From NCBI GenBank assembly GCA_946699065.1, contig CAMPDV010000373.1, forward strand, positions 248,001 to 312,000: a stretch of DNA of 64,000 bases, in the 5' to 3' direction. Both the position numbers and the translations under genes were made by a program. Positions 13,101 through 59,993 of this stretch are shown here, piece after piece. A model generated the notes under the pieces. The model had not been told where the DNA came from. It made no database searches and saw only the letters and a list, made by a program, of their open reading frames with translations. The DNA is from Loxodes magnus. Its lineage: Eukaryota > Ciliophora > Karyorelictea > Loxodida > Loxodidae. Position 1 is the stretch's first letter. The number at the start of each line of letters is the position of its first letter.

Positions 13101-14153
13101 GAACTCAATTACACATAAAGCTAAATTATCAATACTTGGTATATTTGGGATATTTCTAGTTGATTATAGTTCTGTCAAGTAAAATTGAGAAAGACTCTGA
13201 GATTTCCTATGGAGTGATCTACTTTATAAGTTGTGTCTGCTTTCAATTAATAACATACAAAATGAAGCCCTTTTCGTATATAAAAATCTACATTCTATGG
13301 TAATGCTGCCTTTCCATATTAGTAGTGCATGGATTTTTGAGTATGATAATAATAATAAAAAGCATAGAAGTAACAAATCGCTATTACTTAATGGTAGCTT
13401 TAATAGTATCCTCTATCATTATCTTTTTCTTTGGATTCTTAAAATAAAGAAAGTTTGAAAGTTTATTGAAGTTCAATACTAAGAATGCCTCAGGACTTTT
13501 TAGATGAGCTTATTAGATAAAAACTAGAAAGGAATATTTAGATTAGCATAGAGAAGATTAAGTTTACTTATATAACAGAAATAGGTATTTCACAGACATT
13601 TAGTTAAGAGATCCTTTACATCTCTTCAAGCTTAGAAGCATAAAAGAAACAAATGAAGAATTCGATTAAGTAGTGCAAGCTTATGAAAAGGCAGGGAAAG
13701 TTAAATCATTTAAACACACTCCTGTTGGTAGAACTTTGTCAATTATAGAGAAAAACTAATGTTTATCATAAACTCTAATGTATGTATAAAGTAAGCTTTT
13801 TTATATTTCTAGGCTTCGAACAGAGTGTTGAAAATGCTTATAAGTCTACTACTTTATAAAATATATAGCAAAGAAGTTTAGACTAAACTTAAGATTTTGA
13901 AATGATTTCTAAGAAAGAAGATAAAAATGAAAATGCTAAGTAAGAATATTTCCAAGGAACAGCGGTATATAAACAAAAATCTAAGTAGCAAAAGCTATCC
14001 AATAGATTTATGTTTACTAAGAGCATTCTAAAGTAAGGAGAATTACAAATGAAAGAAATAGACTAAATTTCTATCCTGGAACAAAAGGAGCAAGATTAAT
14101 CTAAGAGCTCTTTACAAGCAGAATAGAGTATATCAGAGAATTTAGAAAAATGA
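10145..14153 (+). CDS. Family-C-GPCR-like receptor with periplasmic-binding ectodomain
   Basis: 1,328 residues after removal of one 22-nt intron (13791-13812); stop TGA 14151-14153. Residues 1-17 are a signal peptide (MGITLILLLSILCC). Residues 18 to ~750 form an ANF-receptor/type-1 periplasmic-binding ectodomain, probably two lobes or repeats: INYWNWSTVGFFTNNEQY near 140, then FVPSASGISIGLHQFF near 425 and RTTMSDAFQGLLIARL near 466. From ~767 come about nine hydrophobic segments, so it is not a textbook seven-helix protein. A Cys-flanked loop at ~929-940, DFNEDGQLTFKE, matches all EF-hand ligand positions. The ~220-residue tail is Gln/Glu/Lys-rich and probably cytoplasmic. Role inferred: surface sensing of a small ligand, possibly calcium-tuned. 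It is closely related to the gene at 37.6-42.7 kb. Confidence 0.85.
13791..13812 (+). other. 22-nt spliceosomal intron in receptor gene
   Basis: Starts GTAAGC and ends TTTCTAG. Removing it changes frame by one and joins two well-formed stretches (TLMYVQ|SFEQSVENAYK). The same intron is conserved in the minus-strand paralogue near 37985-38015. Confidence 0.85.
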
Positions 14154-16593: not shown

Positions 16594-18049
16594 AAACCGC
16601 CATAGTTGTTCGAAGGTGAACAACAAGGTCATCTTCATCAGAGGTTGGGGAAGTTAAGTACCCATAATCGACTTTATGTCTTCCTTTGCTTTGGTTTGGC
16701 CTCGAGACATAAGTTTCTTAGACCTTCGACGTTGGCTTGACTTGGTTTCGTTTATTTTTAATTCTGGAACGAAAAAGAAATAATATTGCGAGCTTCATCA
16801 GAGGTGGGGAATTTAAGTACCCATAATTGACACATGTCTTCCTCTGCTTTGGTGATGCAATGAGATACAATCCTGCCATGTCCTTGGACCTCCAGCAAGT
16901 ATTAAAGATTACGAGTATTCTAAAATTATATCAGTATTGAACATTTTTATCAGTACTGAATAATTATACCAGTATTGAACAAGGTTTATCAGTATTGAAT
17001 AATTATACCAGTATTGAACAAGGTTTATCAGTACTGAATAATTATACCAGTATTGAACAAGGTTTATCAGTACTGAATAATTATACCAGTATTGAACAAG
17101 GTTTATCAGTACTGAATAATTATACCAGTATTGAACAAGGTTTATCAGTACTGAATAATTATACCAGTATTGAACAAGGTTTATCAGTACTGAATAATTA
17201 TACCAGTATTGAACAAGGTTTATCAGTACTGAATAATTATACCAGTATTGAACAAGGTTTATCAGTACTGAATAATTATACCAGTATTGAACATTTTTAT
17301 CAGTACTGAATAATTATACCAGTATTGAACATTTTTATCAGTACTGAATAATTATACCAGTATTGAACAAGGTTTATCAGTACTGAATAATTATATCAGT
17401 ATTGAACAAGGTTTATCAGTACTGAATAATTATATCAGTATTGAACAAGGTTTATCAGTACTGAATAATTATACCAGTATTGAACAAGGTTTATCAGTAC
17501 TGAATAATTATATCAGTATTGAACAAGGTTTATCAGTACTGAATAATTATACCAGTATTGAACATTTTTATCAGTACTGAATAATTATACCAGTATTGAA
17601 CAAGGTTTATCAGTACTGAATAATTATACCAGTATTGAACATTTTTATCAGTACTGAATAATTATACCAGTATTGAACAAGGTTTATCAGTACTGAATAA
17701 TTATATCAGTATTGAACAAGGTTTATCAGTACTGAATAATTATATCAGTATTGAACAAGGTTTATCAGTACTGAATAATTATACCAGTATTGAACAAGGT
17801 TTATCAGTACTGAATAATTATATCAGTATTGAACAAGGTTTATCAGTACTGAATAATTATACCAGTATTGAACATTTTTATCAGTACTGAATAATTATAC
17901 CAGTATTGAACAAGGTTTATCAGTATCTGATAATTTTATCAGTAACAAACATTCTTGCCAGTATGAAACATTTTTTTTAAAGAGCTGCGTACCAACGAGA
18001 GTGCTACGCGCTCTATAATCAAATTTATTTATTTATTATTTATTTATCA
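16594..18049 (+). mobile_element. SINE-like retroposon, copy 2, with expanded internal minisatellite
   Basis: The first ~310 bp (16594-16905) match copy 6 at 32935-33240 closely. They contain an internal duplication (CATCAGAGG...GGGGAA...TTAAGTACCCATAAT occurs twice) and several complementary arms (CAGAGG/CCTCTG, CATCA/TGATG), so this head is probably a structured RNA. A tandem array (16922-17945) follows, then the shared 3' hairpin AGAGCTGCG...CGCGCTCT and a TTTATTTATT tail. In copy 6 the array is only two or three half-units long, so this copy grew by tandem duplication after insertion. Confidence 0.7.
16922..17945. repeat. ~39-bp minisatellite inside the retroposon
   Basis: About 26 tandem units of ~39 bp, each made of two related halves with cores CCAGTATTGAACA and TCAGTACTGAATAA. 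Variants (GAACAAGG against GAACATTT; ACCAG against ATCAG) recur in blocks, showing higher-order duplication. The unit length is divisible by three, so one strand has an open repeat peptide in the standard code. I regard that as a by-product of the period. Confidence 0.9.
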
Positions 18050-25482: not shown

Positions 25483-28400
25483 TCAAGTTTTCTTTTTATT
25501 CTCTTCAAATTTTGATTCCTGAAAAATGTTGGCATTATTATCTTCTGAAATATCTTCTACCTCGAGGCTTTAGTTACTCCTCTCTCTTATTTGCTTATAT
25601 TCCATAGAGAAACTTTAACTGTCTAATTAATTAAAATTTATTACCTTCATGTGAGCTTAGATTTAAATTATAGTTCTCTTCTTTCTTCACACTTTCACCT
25701 TTTTTATCTTTTCTTAATGTTAGACTCTAAACTTTGAAGACTTGGATCTCTTCTTTATGTACTTTTCTTTCTGACTTAATATATTATTCTTACAAGGAGG
25801 AAATGATTGTTGATCTATTTGGTAATTTTTCTTAACTTTCTTAGTAAAAGAAAGTTTCTACTTTCACTTTACTCAACTACTTACTCTTAATACTGATTAG
25901 CTAATTCTGCTTAGTAGCTCTTAATGCTAATTTATGCTTTTCATCTAATGAAAATTCTTAGTTTTGCTCTAAATTCTACTTTATCTGCTCTACTCCTATT
26001 TGAATCCTTTTCTACTACATATTCACATGCTCATCCAATAGATCAACGTTATCTTTCAACCTAAAAGCAAATCTAAACAAAGCTACTTTGTCAGGCTCTA
26101 TTTCTATTATTCAAGTTTTAAGCTTCCTTTGTTTTAGATAACTCAATACTATAATCACCAATAATGATCCTCCTAACACTACCAAAAAGGCTAGCTAATT
26201 AGTATCTGAGTTTAGCATGAAAACATTTGAAATAAGAGTTGTAACGAAAATGGAGACTAAGATGGTTAGATAAATGAAGTTAAATTTTTCATAAGTAATA
26301 GGCTTTTTCTTATAGATCACTATAATTAAGAGTAAAACCTAAAGCTAATATAGCGAGGTATTTATCTCTGGGTACTTCTCTTTGAATACTTTACTAGATA
26401 GAATCATCAATACCTATATAAAAGACTTTATTTAGGTATACTGAGGCTGCTCTTTTATATGCTAATTGTCGGATAAAAATTACCATTAAGGCCTGCAAAG
26501 AATCATTGAAGGAATGTAGAAACTTAGAACTATAAACGATAAGATAAAGATTATAGCATGCAAGTTAGAAAAGCAACTGCTCTAGCAATCCTGGAAAAGA
26601 AAACTCTCAGATAATTCTATTTCTCCATCTATATTACTATCTCTTCCATAAAGGCATTGAAACACTGAGTTCAAATTATATATTATAGGGACAAAAAGAA
26701 CTTCGTTTATCACTAAAGAGCAATTGAAGGAAATCTTTCCTAGAATTCTTAATAAAAAGACTTTAAATCTGATTTCAAATTTCAGCATGAAGAAAATAAG
26801 AAGTAATATGGAAATAAAAGCAGCAGCAAGGAATATTTCGTTTATAATTCAGAAGACATAAATTTTGAAATAGTTTAAAAGAAAATTTATGTCTAAAATA
26901 CTCATTCTGATACCCATATTTACTTCATAATTTATAAAATCTTCATAAACTCCTAAGGCTAGAATTTACAGGCATTGTGCCATTAAAATTAGTTTGAAAA
27001 GTCAATCTTCATCTGACATTCATACTTCTTAGTTTACTACCTCAAACTTATTATTTTTTCAGACTTTTATTCCAACTATTAGGGAAACTAAAGATACTAG
27101 AAGAAACCAAACTGATACAACTATTACTATCTAATATCCTAGGGTAAAATCTTAGACTCTTCTCTCAGTAAAATCACATTGATCATCATAAATATCGAAT
27201 GAATCTTTTGGAATGTTAGTTGAATTATCATTTCAGATAATCTATCCATTGACTTATAATCAAACAATAGAGCAAGTCACACAATAAATTTCTTTATTTG
27301 TTACATTTGATTCTCCTTCAGAATCGAATATTTCATTATAAAAGAAGAAACTTACTGCCTCTCTAAAATTACTTTTAGAGTCAAACTTTATAGCTCCTGA
27401 GCAGCCATAAAGTTTTTTCTTTCTGATACTTTTAATTAAATCATCTGCATTATGATAATCCAATCCTGCATTAATAGCTGCATCTATTCCGTATGCAATT
27501 ATCAAAGGTAATTCTAATGTTTAGCATATAGCAGTAGTTTAAATATCACACTATTACTATACCTTAAATAGTTTTTCCCCTCTTTCTCCTGAATATTCTT
27601 CTTGCTAGACTATTATCTATCCATATAGAAGCTTCTTCACTTACTTAATATTTTAAATATCCAATTGAGCAGAAAAAATAGTACTGCTAGTATATAGAGT
27701 TATGAAGTTGAAATCTCCTTTCTTATAGCCATAATTGGATAATCCTTTAGCGATATCTGGTATTTAGTTGCCTGGGAACATAATAATGATTTTTATTTCT
27801 TTGTCTAGTATTTCCTTACAAATTTCGTCTACTTCTCCAGAATCTACTCAGCTAGTTAGATTTAGAAAAAAGAATTAAGTCTTTGAGTTCATAATAACTT
27901 TCCCCGTTTAATTAGCCCATTAAACTATTTTCTCATAAATTTCTCTATATGAAGTTAAATCTACGAGAGCAAGCAATCCAAATTTGTTTCAACCTTTTCT
28001 TTCTATAAATCTGGTAATAGCGGAAGAATATCTTTAGTATGAAGCAAAGTTAATCAATACATTTCTGAATTCAGTGTGATTGCCTAATTAATTTTGTAAA
28101 GTAACTAGTAAATAAGGCAGATGTAAATTCATTTGCTCTAGGATTTAGTAAACAGGATAGAATGTAATTGGTATTATAGTACCAAAATGAGATATTCCCA
28201 AATGAGTGTAATTTTAAGCTATTGTATTTATAACGTAGTCTGCATCAAAATATAAGCATCCATAAGAAAAAGGATTTGCTATTAGATTGTAGTTTTGTAG
28301 TATATCACCATGCTAGTTTATATAGTTTGCTATACAAGGGATAAATTAGCTTTGAATTACTGGTGGTAAATAATCTGACTTATTGAATGGCTCTTTACGA

Positions 28401-55837: not shown

Positions 55838-58532
55838 TCATTTAAATATTATCATAAAGTTAGAGTATCCTTCCTTTTGTCTTACATCATTTCACCGTAA
55901 TTTCTTATATTATTTAGGCAGGATAGCAAAGTATCATATAAAATAGGAATAAAATAAAAACTTTATTATATGAAATCTGAAATATCTAGAACTAATCTTT
56001 TATGAAAACACTAAATTAGAGAAAGCTATTTATAATTATTCCAGCAGTAGAATATAGCTTAAACATATTAAATTGAAGGAAATATTCAAATTGTATGACT
56101 TTTACTTTTTTTCTTCTTTTATTCTAACTTTTTTTCTGGATTTAAATTCTAAAGATAATTAAATAAAAATATAATAGCTTTGGTTTGATTATAGAAATCA
56201 TTTGATTTATTAGAATATTTTAATTTATCTATCTATATAGTTGAAAGGATAATATCTTGTTTACAATTTTTTTTAAATTATTTTTATCTTTAAAGCAACT
56301 TAAGGTTCCAAATAGCTTAATATTTCATATTCTAAACTTATATTTAATAATAAATTTAATTAGTATTTACTAAATCATTTATATTTTCTATCTAGAGATA
56401 AAATACAATCTATATTAATTTTCGATTGGATAAATTATATAGCTTTGATAAAAATAATATAATCTATTGTCTTCCATCAGATAAATCATATTATTATATA
56501 ACTTCATCTAACTAGTCGCTTACTATAGCTAATTTAATTTGAATGATTAGCAATTTAAAGGAATTTTAGAAACATTTTTAAAGAGTCTTCTTAGCGCTTA
56601 GCTTATGTAAAATTTTATCTCGCTATTTATTTAATAAATCAAAATAATTTAAAAATAAAGCTTTTTTAAGCATAATATTCAAGCTCCATAATATATTTCT
56701 TTAGTTCAGATCATTCATTAATTCTTGAACTATTGTTAAAAGGTCGCTTAATAGATTTAAACTTTTTATATTTCTAAAAATTTTGTTTCTCAACTTCTTT
56801 CAACTCAGTCTTAAAAAACGCTACTTTCCTCAGCTTTAAATTTTTTGCTATTAATAATATTTGGAATATAAATATCTAAGCTCTAGATTAGAAAATGAAA
56901 ATAATTAATTAAGTTTATATATTTAAATGTTTTGGCCATTATAATAAATCATATCTAGATCTACTATACAATGAATCGAAACACATTACATTCTATATTT
57001 TTTAAATTCCGTACCAATTGATAAAAGTTTAAAAGTTCTCTCAATGCCATAACTAAATCATATTTATGAGATTACTTCACCCTACAAAGAATTTAAAAGT
57101 CTAACTACTATATTCTTATTAAAGCATTACGCACTAAATTCTTATTTTCTTACTCTCTATAATATTTAGTCTAAATTACAAACTTTTGATATTAGAAAAA
57201 ATTACGCGCTGTTTTTAATATGTTACATTCTAATAAAAATTAAGATGTGTTACTTGCTAAAAATATAAAAAATTACTTGCTAATAATGATTTATAAAGTA
57301 CTTTCTAATTATATAATTCATATTACCACCTAAATAAATAAGATTTATTACTCACTAATTAGTAATAAATATAGTACTTGCTTTAATTAAGTTATTTAGT
57401 TTACAATCTATATAAGTTCTAAATATCTTACTCTCTATAATAAAACTTTTTTATACGAACTAAAACATTTAATTTTCTTACTAACTAGGAAGTTAAAGTT
57501 TTACCTTCTGATAAATATTTAAGTATCTACTCACTTTAAATAATAAAATTGTTTACAATCTATATTAGAAATTTACCATCTAAGAATTGTAAATCAAGTA
57601 CCATCTTCATTTAACTTCTTACTCACTTTAAGTAATAAAAGTTATACAAGCTGAAGTATTTGAATTATTACAATCTATAAGTATTTAAGTATATACTCTC
57701 TGTAAATTTCTAATTTATTGTACTATCTAAAATTAAAAAGTTTACTATCTATAAAATTTAAAAAACTACCCTCTAAGTTTAATTTAAATCATTTACAATC
57801 TATAAAGTATTGAAAGGCTTACTAGCTAAATTTAATAGGATACACTCTTTTATAAGATTTAAATATAATACCCTCTATACAAACTTTTAAGTTTTACTTG
57901 CTATTAAAATTTAAAGTATTACCAACTAAAAATTATTAACTTTACTTTCTATAAAATTCTAAATGTAATACTATCTATTAAGAAAGTTCTTAAAAACTTA
58001 CCATCTAACATGATTTGAGAGTTTTACTTACTAAAGTATAATAAAAGCATTACAAACTATAATAGAAAATATTCTTACACTCTTATATAATTTAAATCCT
58101 ACTTTCTTATTATATTTAATGTATTACGCCCTATATTTATACATGATACAATCTATTTTTAAATGATACTTTCTATAAAAATTATTATTCTTACGTACTA
58201 AAAGGTTTATCAGTAAATTACATTCTATGAAATCAACATTTTACCCTCTATAAAGTAAAAAGGTTACAAACTATAATAAAATAAGTACTTACTCACTATA
58301 ATGTTTTTAAATATGTTACTTTCTATAATTAAGCAAATTACTCTCTAAGATAAAATGCTTTACACACTGCAAAAGTTTAATTAAGTTACACTCTAAAAAT
58401 TTTATTTATTACGCTCTTTTATTTTTAAAAATTACATTTTTATTCCTCAAAAACGTCCACTAAAATGAAATGTATTACCATCTTGTAATTAAAAGAAATT
58501 ATACTATCTAAGCAGGAAATAAATTAAATTAC
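55838..58532 (-). CDS. Putative gene with about 55 single-codon micro-exons
   Basis: Model on the minus strand. Exon 1 ends with ATG at 58532-58530 and is followed at once by GTAATT. From there to 57128 the strand alternates 3-nt exons with introns of ~17-27 nt. One longer 24-nt exon (58436-58459, encoding WTFLRNKN) lies near the start. Two 6-nt exons (AATATA, GGTGAA) and a 38-nt exon (57015-57052) follow the array, then AAT (56990-56992). Keeping phase 0 throughout gives MIMWTFLRNKNSSCRKWFRN and so on, reaching ELWHWENFQTFINWIRSRYD. The same phase arrives at the convincing stretch KTELKEVEKQNFQKYKKFKS near 56810-56750 and KYIMELEYYAQKSF beyond. The stop is uncertain (two TGA near 55829-55840). 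No domain recognised. The downstream part is more secure than the micro-exon part. Confidence 0.45.
57128..58532 (-). repeat. Regular array of TACNNNCT(A) motifs, ~25-bp period
   Basis: On the plus strand, TAC + 3 variable bases + CT(A/T/G) recurs at 58502, 58476, 58410, 58387, 58361, 58339, 58317, 58290, 58265, 58242, 58219 and so on down to 57151 and 57128: 55 clear units with steps of 20-30 bp, mostly 23-27. The sequence between motifs is AT-rich and not conserved, so this is not an ordinary satellite. On the minus strand each unit is (T/A/C)AG|NNN|GTA, with CTA giving TAG in most units. Period minus three equals 22, the standard intron length in this window. Confidence 0.9.
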
Positions 58533-59993
58533 CATGAGATATTTCTAACTAAGGATCAGCTAAAAGTTATAAATTATTAAGCTTTTTGTCTTTTATTTCT
58601 AAATTGATATTTTGGGGATTAACAATCTATTATTGTGGTTCGGGCTTTGGCTTTGGCTTTTATTAAATTATTTAATTTTATTATTAATTTAAATTGGCAG
58701 AATCCCGTTTGGACTTTAAGCAACCCATTTTATTAGAAAGTAGTTATAAAAAATTAGTTAATTTAAATTATATTGAAATAAAAAATATATTAGATAATAA
58801 ATTTCTTAATAGCTAAATACTTAATCACTCTAAAGCACATACATCTATAATAGCAAAATATTTTAAATATGGAAATAAAATTTCTTAGAATATAAAAAGT
58901 TAAATATATATCTCTGCTTTAAAAAGGGATATAAAAATTATTTTAATTTAATATAATTTTAGCACTTAATACTATTAACTAAATTATTTACTTTTAAATA
59001 TAAATAAATTAAATTATTAAAAATAATATTTTACTTAATCTTAAAATAATATAATATGTGGATTAAAATTTGAAAACATTTCTTCTAAAATTATAGAATT
59101 TTTATTAAGCAAAAATAGAAAATAAATATTTTTCAGGAATAAAAAATGAATTAATTATTTTCTATGGATAATGTAATATATTTATGATTTTATAAAATAT
59201 TATTTGATTAAAAGTAAGATTTTAACTAACAAAAATTTATATTTAGATTGTAAATTAAAATTAATTTTTGAATTCTAAAAGAATTTATTTTTAAATTAAA
59301 ATTAATTGTTAGTCTTCTAGTTGGTATCAATTTAATTATAATTATTATATATTAATACTGTTTGAAAGATCTAAATTAAAACAAATGTAATTTAAATTTT
59401 GATGTTATATAAATATCATTTAAATTTAGGCTTATTTTATTTACTTTTAAAAGTTTGTAAAACATAGTTATAATAAATTTAATTCTACTTAAAAAAGTAT
59501 ATAAATATAGCAAAATAACCTTAAGATTATAAAATAGCTTTTTCATAAGTTGATAATTTTAATTTTGTTTCAATTAGATAAAGAATTGCGAACAAAATAT
59601 TATAATTAAATTTAATTATTTTAACTAATAACATTTTTATAATTGGATAAACTTTGAATAATATTAAATTAGTAATATTAAAATAATACTTTTAAATTAA
59701 ATTTTTATAAATTAAAGATTACAAAGATTCTAAAATAACTACAATCTATTGAAAATTAAAATTTTCTAATTTTAATTAAAAAATGCTACATTAAAATAAT
59801 AATAAAAATAATCTTTTAATTAAAGAAAAATTAAATCTACCATTTATAAAATATAATTCCCATTTAATATAACTAAACTTCATTTTTGAATAAGAACTTT
59901 TGTTTTTTAGTTTTTATTTTTTTTAATATATAAAAACTTAGCTATTAACAATAAATTTCTATAAGGTAAAGCTTTTTAATTAATTAATTTTAA
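58533..59993. other. AT-rich spacer with a small GC-richer patch
   Basis: Upstream of the micro-exon gene. A patch at 58620-58735 contains a GGCTTT direct repeat and GGCAGAATCCCGTTTGGACT, which could be a promoter or leader of the minus-strand gene or an RNA fragment; it does not fold as a tRNA that I can see. The rest is low-complexity A/T with nothing recognised. Confidence 0.35.

Follow-up and report, generated by a model that had tools for sequence, protein, structure and literature searches.

Whether a protein-coding gene can be cut into single triplets by dozens of consecutive introns is the question raised by a locus in the genome of the ciliate Loxodes magnus. A preliminary description of the window, a stretch of 64,000 nucleotides (C373:248001-312000), had proposed a coding gene in which introns of about 22 nt follow one another in tandem with 3-nt exons between them; comparison of paralogues and counts over the assembly (705,730,643 bases searched) strongly support this proposal, while several of its details had to be revised. 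The underlying series of AG-NNN-GTA on the minus strand was readily reproduced: between 57120 and 58540 (1421 bases) AG-N(k)-GTA occurs 57 times with k = 3 and at most 11 times with any other k from 0 to 12, and dinucleotide shuffles (n = 500) contained on average 3.2 and never more than 10 units with k = 3. Outside the array, where the window holds 62 such units on the minus and 46 on the plus strand, neighbouring spacings gave 40-64 and 29-65 matches, and k = 3 is unremarkable. A chain search joined 53 consecutive units with none missing (58415-57131; Table 1). The 52 spacers measure 17-27 nt with 22 nt as the commonest length (13 of 52), and all of them run from GTA to AG, ends which are fixed by the way the chain was built. 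They resemble spliceosomal introns of Loxodes, characterized by GT...AG ends and about 17-25 nt. RNA-seq introns of L. magnus have a mean of 19.3 nt and a mode of 17 nt, with 93% not exceeding 25 nt (PMC11441545, available sections), and the match in length was counted in favour of spliced introns. Four further introns of exactly 22 nt had been cited from the same window; when GT-N18-AG beginning at most 3 bases from each cited position was looked for, the only length and offset range tried, it was detected at 13791 (GTA...TAG) and 49445 (GTG...TAG) and not at 25623 and 60961. TRF reported the array merely as short pieces instead of one array, as expected from its high divergence. The window also carries a 39-bp tandem repeat at 16924-17944 (26 copies, 95% matches, higher order 310 bp).

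Table 1. Features of the array gene (window positions) as read from the sequence
Feature	Position	Strand	Remarks
Putative first coding exon	58533..58728	-	196 nt, ATG at 58728; MGCLKSKRDSANLNQQQNQIIQQKPKPKPEPQQQIVNPQNINLEIKDKKLNNLQLLADPQLEISH plus 1 nt, phase 1 exit
First intron (putative)	58532-58508	-	between the 196-nt exon and the ATA triplet exon
Two single-triplet exons and the intron between them	58479..58507	-	ATA 58507-58505, ATG 58481-58479
24-nt exon	58436..58459	-	in phase 1 the paralogues read D[V/A/P]F[E/V]EQK (alignment, by eye)
Array of 53 3-nt exons and 52 introns GTA...AG	57131..58415	-	phase-1 product QLQKMIQELQNWQKFLNDKIAKESNQDNKNSLNDDLKVIQNSMSETTKSLQM
Probable exit exons	57015..57107	-	2 nt (57107-57106), 6 nt (57081-57076), 38 nt (57052-57015)
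Open frame downstream	56089..56799	-	code 27, 237 aa; possibly part of the array gene

A DNA search for copies of the window gene led to C188 (97%), C373:109866 (79%) and C373:58463 (73%), and ATGGGTTGC is kept in exon 1 of all three paralogues (MGC family). Their chains comprise 53 (L040), 52 (L041) and 48 (L042) AG-NNN-GTA units, and the triplet columns of the window align ungapped with those of L041 and L042. The introns differ from the window in length at 27 of 52 positions in L041 and 31 of 52 in L042, in 23 and 27 cases by a number that is not a multiple of three. Change relative to the window amounts to 0.03 and 0.05 at GTA, 0.04 and 0.04 at AG, and 0.25 and 0.32 in the intron interior for L041 and L042, respectively. 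The length constraint sits on triplets and splice sites, with intron interior and intron length free. These observations bear on the alternative that the array is kept in the transcript and translated through, or skipped as a single intron of about 1.4 kb. As code 27 stops at TGA only, unspliced TGA-free runs indeed reach 305 aa in the 1.4-kb window array and 421 and 289 aa within the 4.5-kb loci L041 and L042; long runs are, however, expected for AT-rich DNA with one stop codon, the length differences that are not multiples of three stand against read-through, and the phase-1 peptide described below is conserved only after removal of the spacers. A single skipped intron would not preserve some 50 internal splice-site pairs, and we regard both variants of this alternative as very unlikely.

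The preliminary description had placed the start of the gene at an ATG directly followed by a donor (about 58532) and had taken every triplet as a whole codon. The likely start is instead the ATG opening the 196-nt exon that ends at this donor in phase 1, and the introns are best read in phase 1, since the phase-0 peptide SSCRKWFRNYK... showed no conservation. In this rejected phase, NCN codons are absent (0/53), GNN codons are rare (2/53), and changed codons are without conservation. In phase 1, the triplets of the window run on from exon 1 (MGCLKSK...LEISH) into DNVDVFEEQKQQLQKMIQELQNWQKFLNDKIAKESNQDNKNSLNDDLKVIQNSMSETTKSLQM, those of L041 and L042 read DAFVEQKKNVQKSIEDLKKQQKFLKDKIAKESNEDNKKSLNENLKVIEEQITITEKSLSM and ILRKMIDDYEQQRKNLNEKISNENDEENKKSLREDLNVIEEQIALTQKS, and peptides such as DLKVIQNSMSETTK and YWKYYETR are predicted to span the joins. 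A gene parser, which over-predicts on 10-kb loci by translating intergenic DNA and was used for array and flanking exon calls alone, continued from exon 1 into the array with phase 1 kept when no start was forced. With a forced start it yielded models for L041 and L042 but for neither the window nor L040, and in L041 with an exon 1 frame other than the MGC frame, so that the join from exon 1 to the array was obtained for the window alone.

Codon changes within the MGC family agree with phase 1 in part. Substitutions read in phase 1 are conservative, with mean BLOSUM62 scores of the changed codons between +0.55 and +1.20 (6 of 6 pairs) compared to -0.51 to +0.42 in phase 0 and values below zero in phase 2 (6 of 6), with pairs that are not independent, as the four copies, like the seven genes of the second family below, are related. 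The phase-1 permutation fraction was 0.0015, 0.0095 and 0.032 for the pairs including L042 and 0.0985, 0.189 and 0.9735 (not significant) for the other three; the window/L040 pair lies below its own null (z -2.0), which counts against the coding reading. Triplet change at positions 1/2/3 relative to the window is 0.15/0.28/0.23 in L041 and 0.25/0.36/0.40 in L042, the L041 values being inflated by a few units aligned off by at least one base. As this rate is not below that of the introns, protein constraint in the MGC family must be weak. Triplets drifting at about the spacer rate would also be expected from a non-coding satellite whose 25-27-bp unit contains GTA...AG by accident, with no splicing and meaningless triplets; it is at odds with spacers that differ in both sequence and length between copies in which GTA, AG and the length of the triplets hold. 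Between the arrays of the window and L040 the triplets changed even faster than the introns (7/159 vs 7/1126, Fisher p 0.0006, about 7-fold), and all seven changed codons are nonsynonymous, which again counts against coding; faster triplet change was absent in L035/L036 (3/183 vs 14/1166) and in L037/L038 (no difference in either). In these two copies, 97% identical overall, the first approximately 20 codons past MGC (window 58728-58640) are strongly divergent by eye, and divergence is confined to exons, judged by eye for the start of exon 1 and by count for the array triplets. Some units of other copies have GTT or GC donors, which counts against the splicing reading. At positions 5390-7410 of L029, GC, GTG and GTT donors are scattered among GTA units, as if splice sites had decayed.

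Less clear is how the gene leaves the array. Exons of 24, 6, 6 and 38 nt had been proposed, with one phase kept into a convincing downstream frame; the 24-nt exon was found again, upstream of the array, and exons of 2, 6 and 38 nt are possible downstream, whereas the exit joins no single clear phase. The frame continuing the array through the exit exons meets TGA inside the 38-nt exon in 4 of 4 copies, and the gene may therefore end there. Scores for the three frames over the 38-nt exon and beyond do not discriminate; the frame ERTFKLLSI... is the best by eye, yet out of phase with the array. The lack of a join to a clear downstream frame counts against our preferred explanation of a spliced coding array. 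Just past an AAT exon downstream of the array, L040 lacks one base that the window has, and either the gene ends before this deletion or the L040 copy is broken.

Stronger indications for constraint on the triplets come from a second family, in which several other arrays sit downstream of coding sequence that resembles RING and ubiquitin. Pfam analysis of two N-termini gave matches below the cut-off to ubiquitin (E 1.4e-4 and 5.4e-4) and RING_UBOX (E 4.7e-4 and 1.7e-3). For the ubiquitin-like part the genome search gave at least 294 matches, including, among those listed, the loci of L035, L036, L049, L050 and L052, and it was seen by eye in the parser translations of L029, L030, L032 and L037. 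Its frames contain several TAA and TAG and hardly any TGA, which fits code 27, where TAA and TAG encode glutamine. The family is dispersed (C76:882879, C251:242889, several sites on C156, C298, C262 and others), with many members equally similar across contigs, and may be carried by a mobile element. Seven of its genes share an entry block with up to 14 single-triplet exons, which reads VLKKYWKYYETRE, RSLKRYWKYNEAREE and FWRYFEIRDEQ in phase 1, with W encoded by TGG in some genes and TGA in others. L. magnus uses code 27 with UGA as stop or tryptophan (PMC11441545, available sections).

When L035 was aligned with L049, L050 and L052, triplet bases were kept at 37/42, 39/42 and 34/36 positions (0.88-0.94), compared to an interior identity of the introns of 0.67, 0.68 and 0.66 (shuffled 0.56, 0.60 and 0.61), and intron length differed in 5/13, 4/13 and 4/11 cases. 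This alignment is independent of motif choice and hand anchoring; otherwise, chains of the second family were chosen by a triplet motif, with L029 and L037 anchored by hand, which favours triplet identity. No triplet excess was found for L029 and L031 (triplets 0.67, introns 0.65), and among L031, L049, L050 and L052 intron similarity about equals triplet similarity because these are recent copies. In 10 pairs drawn from 5 genes, the 64 codons changed in phase 1, of which 18 are synonymous, scored a mean of 2.53 (z 5.4; reached in 0 of 1000 permutations), compared to z -1.0 in phase 0 and z 2.3 with a fraction of 0.013 in phase 2. Free drift of the triplets among homologues, named beforehand as an argument against the coding reading, was thus found by half in the window family and not in the second family. 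For an accidental satellite one would expect neither this excess of triplet over spacer identity nor the conservation of one phase as amino acids, including the exchange of TGG and TGA for tryptophan, nor the position of several arrays downstream of RING- and ubiquitin-like coding sequence.

The window array is not unique, and similar arrays recur throughout the genome. The three-unit pattern TAGNNNGTA-N13..21-TAGNNNGTA-N13..21-TAGNNNGTA, for which overlapping matches were accepted and units rather than arrays are counted, led to 14,880 + 15,279 = 30,159 matches with a 3-nt exon, some simple repeat included (C6:517092), compared to 489 + 304 = 793 for the reversed pattern. With the first triplet fixed as TGG, 741 + 613 matches were obtained vs 0 + 0. 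A 4-nt 'exon' gave 265 matches (517 reversed) and a 2-nt version 293 (99 reversed); the 4-nt matches listed all fall into one 8-bp simple repeat on C13, as do all but one of the 2-nt matches listed. Among exon lengths of 2, 3 and 4 nt, the recurrence is specific to 3 nt. Simple repeats at C13:788338-789187 and C6:517092-517525 (8-bp and 10-bp) mimic the pattern and inflate the raw counts. The chain in L044 is unbroken over 160 units.

How such arrays arise can be addressed from the young ones. In L049-L053 and L031 the introns share the consensus GTAAGATATTTTAAATATTTATAG, one array of L051 being one base off. Introns of the commonest length in young chains diverge from the consensus by 0.002-0.071 per site (at most 0.061 in long chains), whereas the triplets deviate from the commonest base by 0.14-0.67 per position, mostly about half. 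The exact 24-nt intron flanked by AGNNN and NNNGT occurs in 24,965 copies (control 0), a multitude of near-identical introns as in introners. The arrays of L049-L053 consist mostly of a 27-bp unit repeated head to tail with higher-order repeats, as in minisatellites with their units of 10-60 bp, and the higher-order repeats indicate that blocks duplicate as units. Introns of the window aligned to the young consensus with a mean score of 8.00 vs 5.31 for shuffled interiors (sd 0.29), a difference that shared splice signals could raise; from this resemblance, the window may carry an array of the same kind that has aged. Tandem repetition with so little divergence of the introns and with higher-order structure is what a satellite would look like, and L053 (18000-25999 of the 43.9-kb contig C3460) is array over the whole 8 kb examined, mostly with the five triplets GGA, TGA, ATT, AAT and ATG. 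Some arrays may well have turned into satellite; as an account of the arrays as such, given the constraint on triplets and splice sites, a non-coding, unspliced satellite appears improbable to us. Many array matches were also observed on C3460, C3879, C6012, C5090, C5453, C5687 and C3071, in both orientations on C3460, C5090 and C5453, and these array-rich contigs look like array-derived satellite or assembly products of arrays.

If units duplicated and then mutated in the ordinary way, introns and triplets should diverge to the same extent, which conflicts with the young arrays; their low intron and high triplet divergence is not explained by tandem duplication with ordinary mutation. Either existing sequence received an intron at each codon, or the triplets were specifically diversified, or introns were homogenised separately. 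The puzzle points to serial intron insertion in one-codon steps within a pre-existing coding sequence or to a strong diversification of the triplets alone. Tentatively, the arrays might be viewed genome-wide as 'intron-codon minisatellites', formed by a process that sets down copies of a single intron at intervals of exactly three bases and in a constant phase.

The predicted product of the window gene was compared to known proteins. Its N-terminus MGCLKSK is hydrophilic by eye and begins with MGC and lysines, a motif for lipid anchoring; the product may thus be lipid-anchored at a membrane. The array would code for a charged, helix-like segment (by eye). Pfam searches with four peptides of the window product (the first being the wrong, phase-0 version) and later with two MGC-family peptides detected no family at the cut-off, with EAD9 as the best match (E 0.0079, 16.4 bits vs 25), and a PDB sequence search returned E 0.11 and weaker. 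None of ten further open frames in the window (0 of 10) matched Pfam at E 0.01, leaving no conserved gene there usable as an intron control. A protein search for intronless or retro-copies in the same genome returned none, an empty answer that shows nothing without a known positive; L041 was missed with its own spliced peptide too, which 3-nt exons would lead one to expect.

Taken together, we consider it highly probable that the locus is a protein-coding gene whose charged, coiled-coil-like segment is cut at every third base by spliceosomal phase-1 introns of 17-27 nt. We infer that the gene is transcribed, spliced and translated as follows. Each 3-nt exon would complete one codon with its first two bases and open the following codon with its third. 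Tiny introns are recognised whole, by intron definition, and each GTA...AG intron would be recognised across its own length and removed singly, joining at least 53 three-base exons in frame. Skipping of one exon would change one residue, and retention of an intron whose length is not a multiple of three would shift the frame. The array would grow like a minisatellite with one intron plus three coding bases as the unit; an added unit would extend the protein by one amino acid, and since the remaining 24 bases or so would be spliced away, growth would be tolerated. In a ciliate, excision of the spacers from DNA, as for internal eliminated sequences, instead of from RNA also has to be considered: the elements are short and AT-rich, and elimination would keep the three-base remainder equally well. 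Their ends are, however, GTA...AG and not a TA repeat, and their lengths match those of RNA-seq introns. Moreover, the assembly of 705.7 Mb fits the macronuclear (706 Mb) and not the micronuclear genome (848 Mb), and extensive elimination was not detectable in L. magnus (PMC11441545, available sections). We regard DNA elimination as extremely improbable.

If true, splicing of the array would amount to a novel gene architecture and would test the splicing process severely. Dozens of times in succession, 3 nt would separate a 3' splice site from the 5' splice site that follows, so that exon definition would have no space at all and two simultaneous spliceosomes would have little. It would test minimal exon size, splicing order and intron definition, and likewise fidelity, as errors multiply across 50 to 100 events. 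It would also be a living case of intron multiplication in which arrays of different age coexist, young ones that are near-identical and old ones that have diverged, next to satellite-like blocks. Standard mappers would hardly align 3-nt exons, and such genes could escape annotation. Hisat2, set to introns of at least 10 nt, served for the annotation of L. magnus, and tandem introns spaced by one triplet are not mentioned in the available sections of PMC11441545. As 3-nt exons would hardly anchor alignments and the word 'microexon' is absent from the main text of PMC11441545, these genes may have gone unseen. Titles and abstracts on Loxodes introns, tandem or 3-nt exons, ciliate introners and micro-exon genes revealed no such arrays, in a literature search with most subscription journals and preprints outside its scope.

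Among known systems, the tiny introns of ciliates (15-16 nt in heterotrichs, mean 19 nt in Loxodes) resemble the window introns in length, AT-richness and GT...AG ends. Ordinary ciliate tiny introns separate exons of normal size. Introners, known from Micromonas and Amoebophrya, likewise form thousands of near-identical introns; they are dispersed with one per site, whereas the Loxodes introns stand head to tail, 3 nt apart. Introners are further marked by insertion at sites that were formerly intronless, as orthologues show, and by target-site duplications or terminal inverted repeats. Splicing of exons no longer than 3 nt is documented, in the accounts available, by single microexons of 1 and 3 nt in Arabidopsis and Drosophila homothorax, which are isolated, in contrast to the dozens in series here. 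SNHG14, with 48 introns for SNORD115 in the available description, shares many consecutive repeated introns with the Loxodes array; in snoRNA host arrays the intron product is the function, and the exons are not single triplets. The nearest known kind is the schistosome micro-exon gene, as far as described in the available sections of PMC10526429. Like the Loxodes arrays, these genes of Schistosoma consist of runs of tiny exons, mostly multiples of three, and form a multigene family poorly handled by automatic annotation, and with 53 tandem exons of 3 nt the window array resembles them. Secreted products with a signal peptide are a further feature of micro-exon genes. Micro-exon genes have 10-20 exons per gene of 6-81 bp (3-81 bp according to the abstract), mostly 15 bp, and introns of 0.1-5 kb (PMC10526429, available sections), whereas the Loxodes arrays have exons of 3 nt, 53 of them unbroken in the window and up to 160 elsewhere, and introns of 17-27 nt that are themselves tandem repeats.
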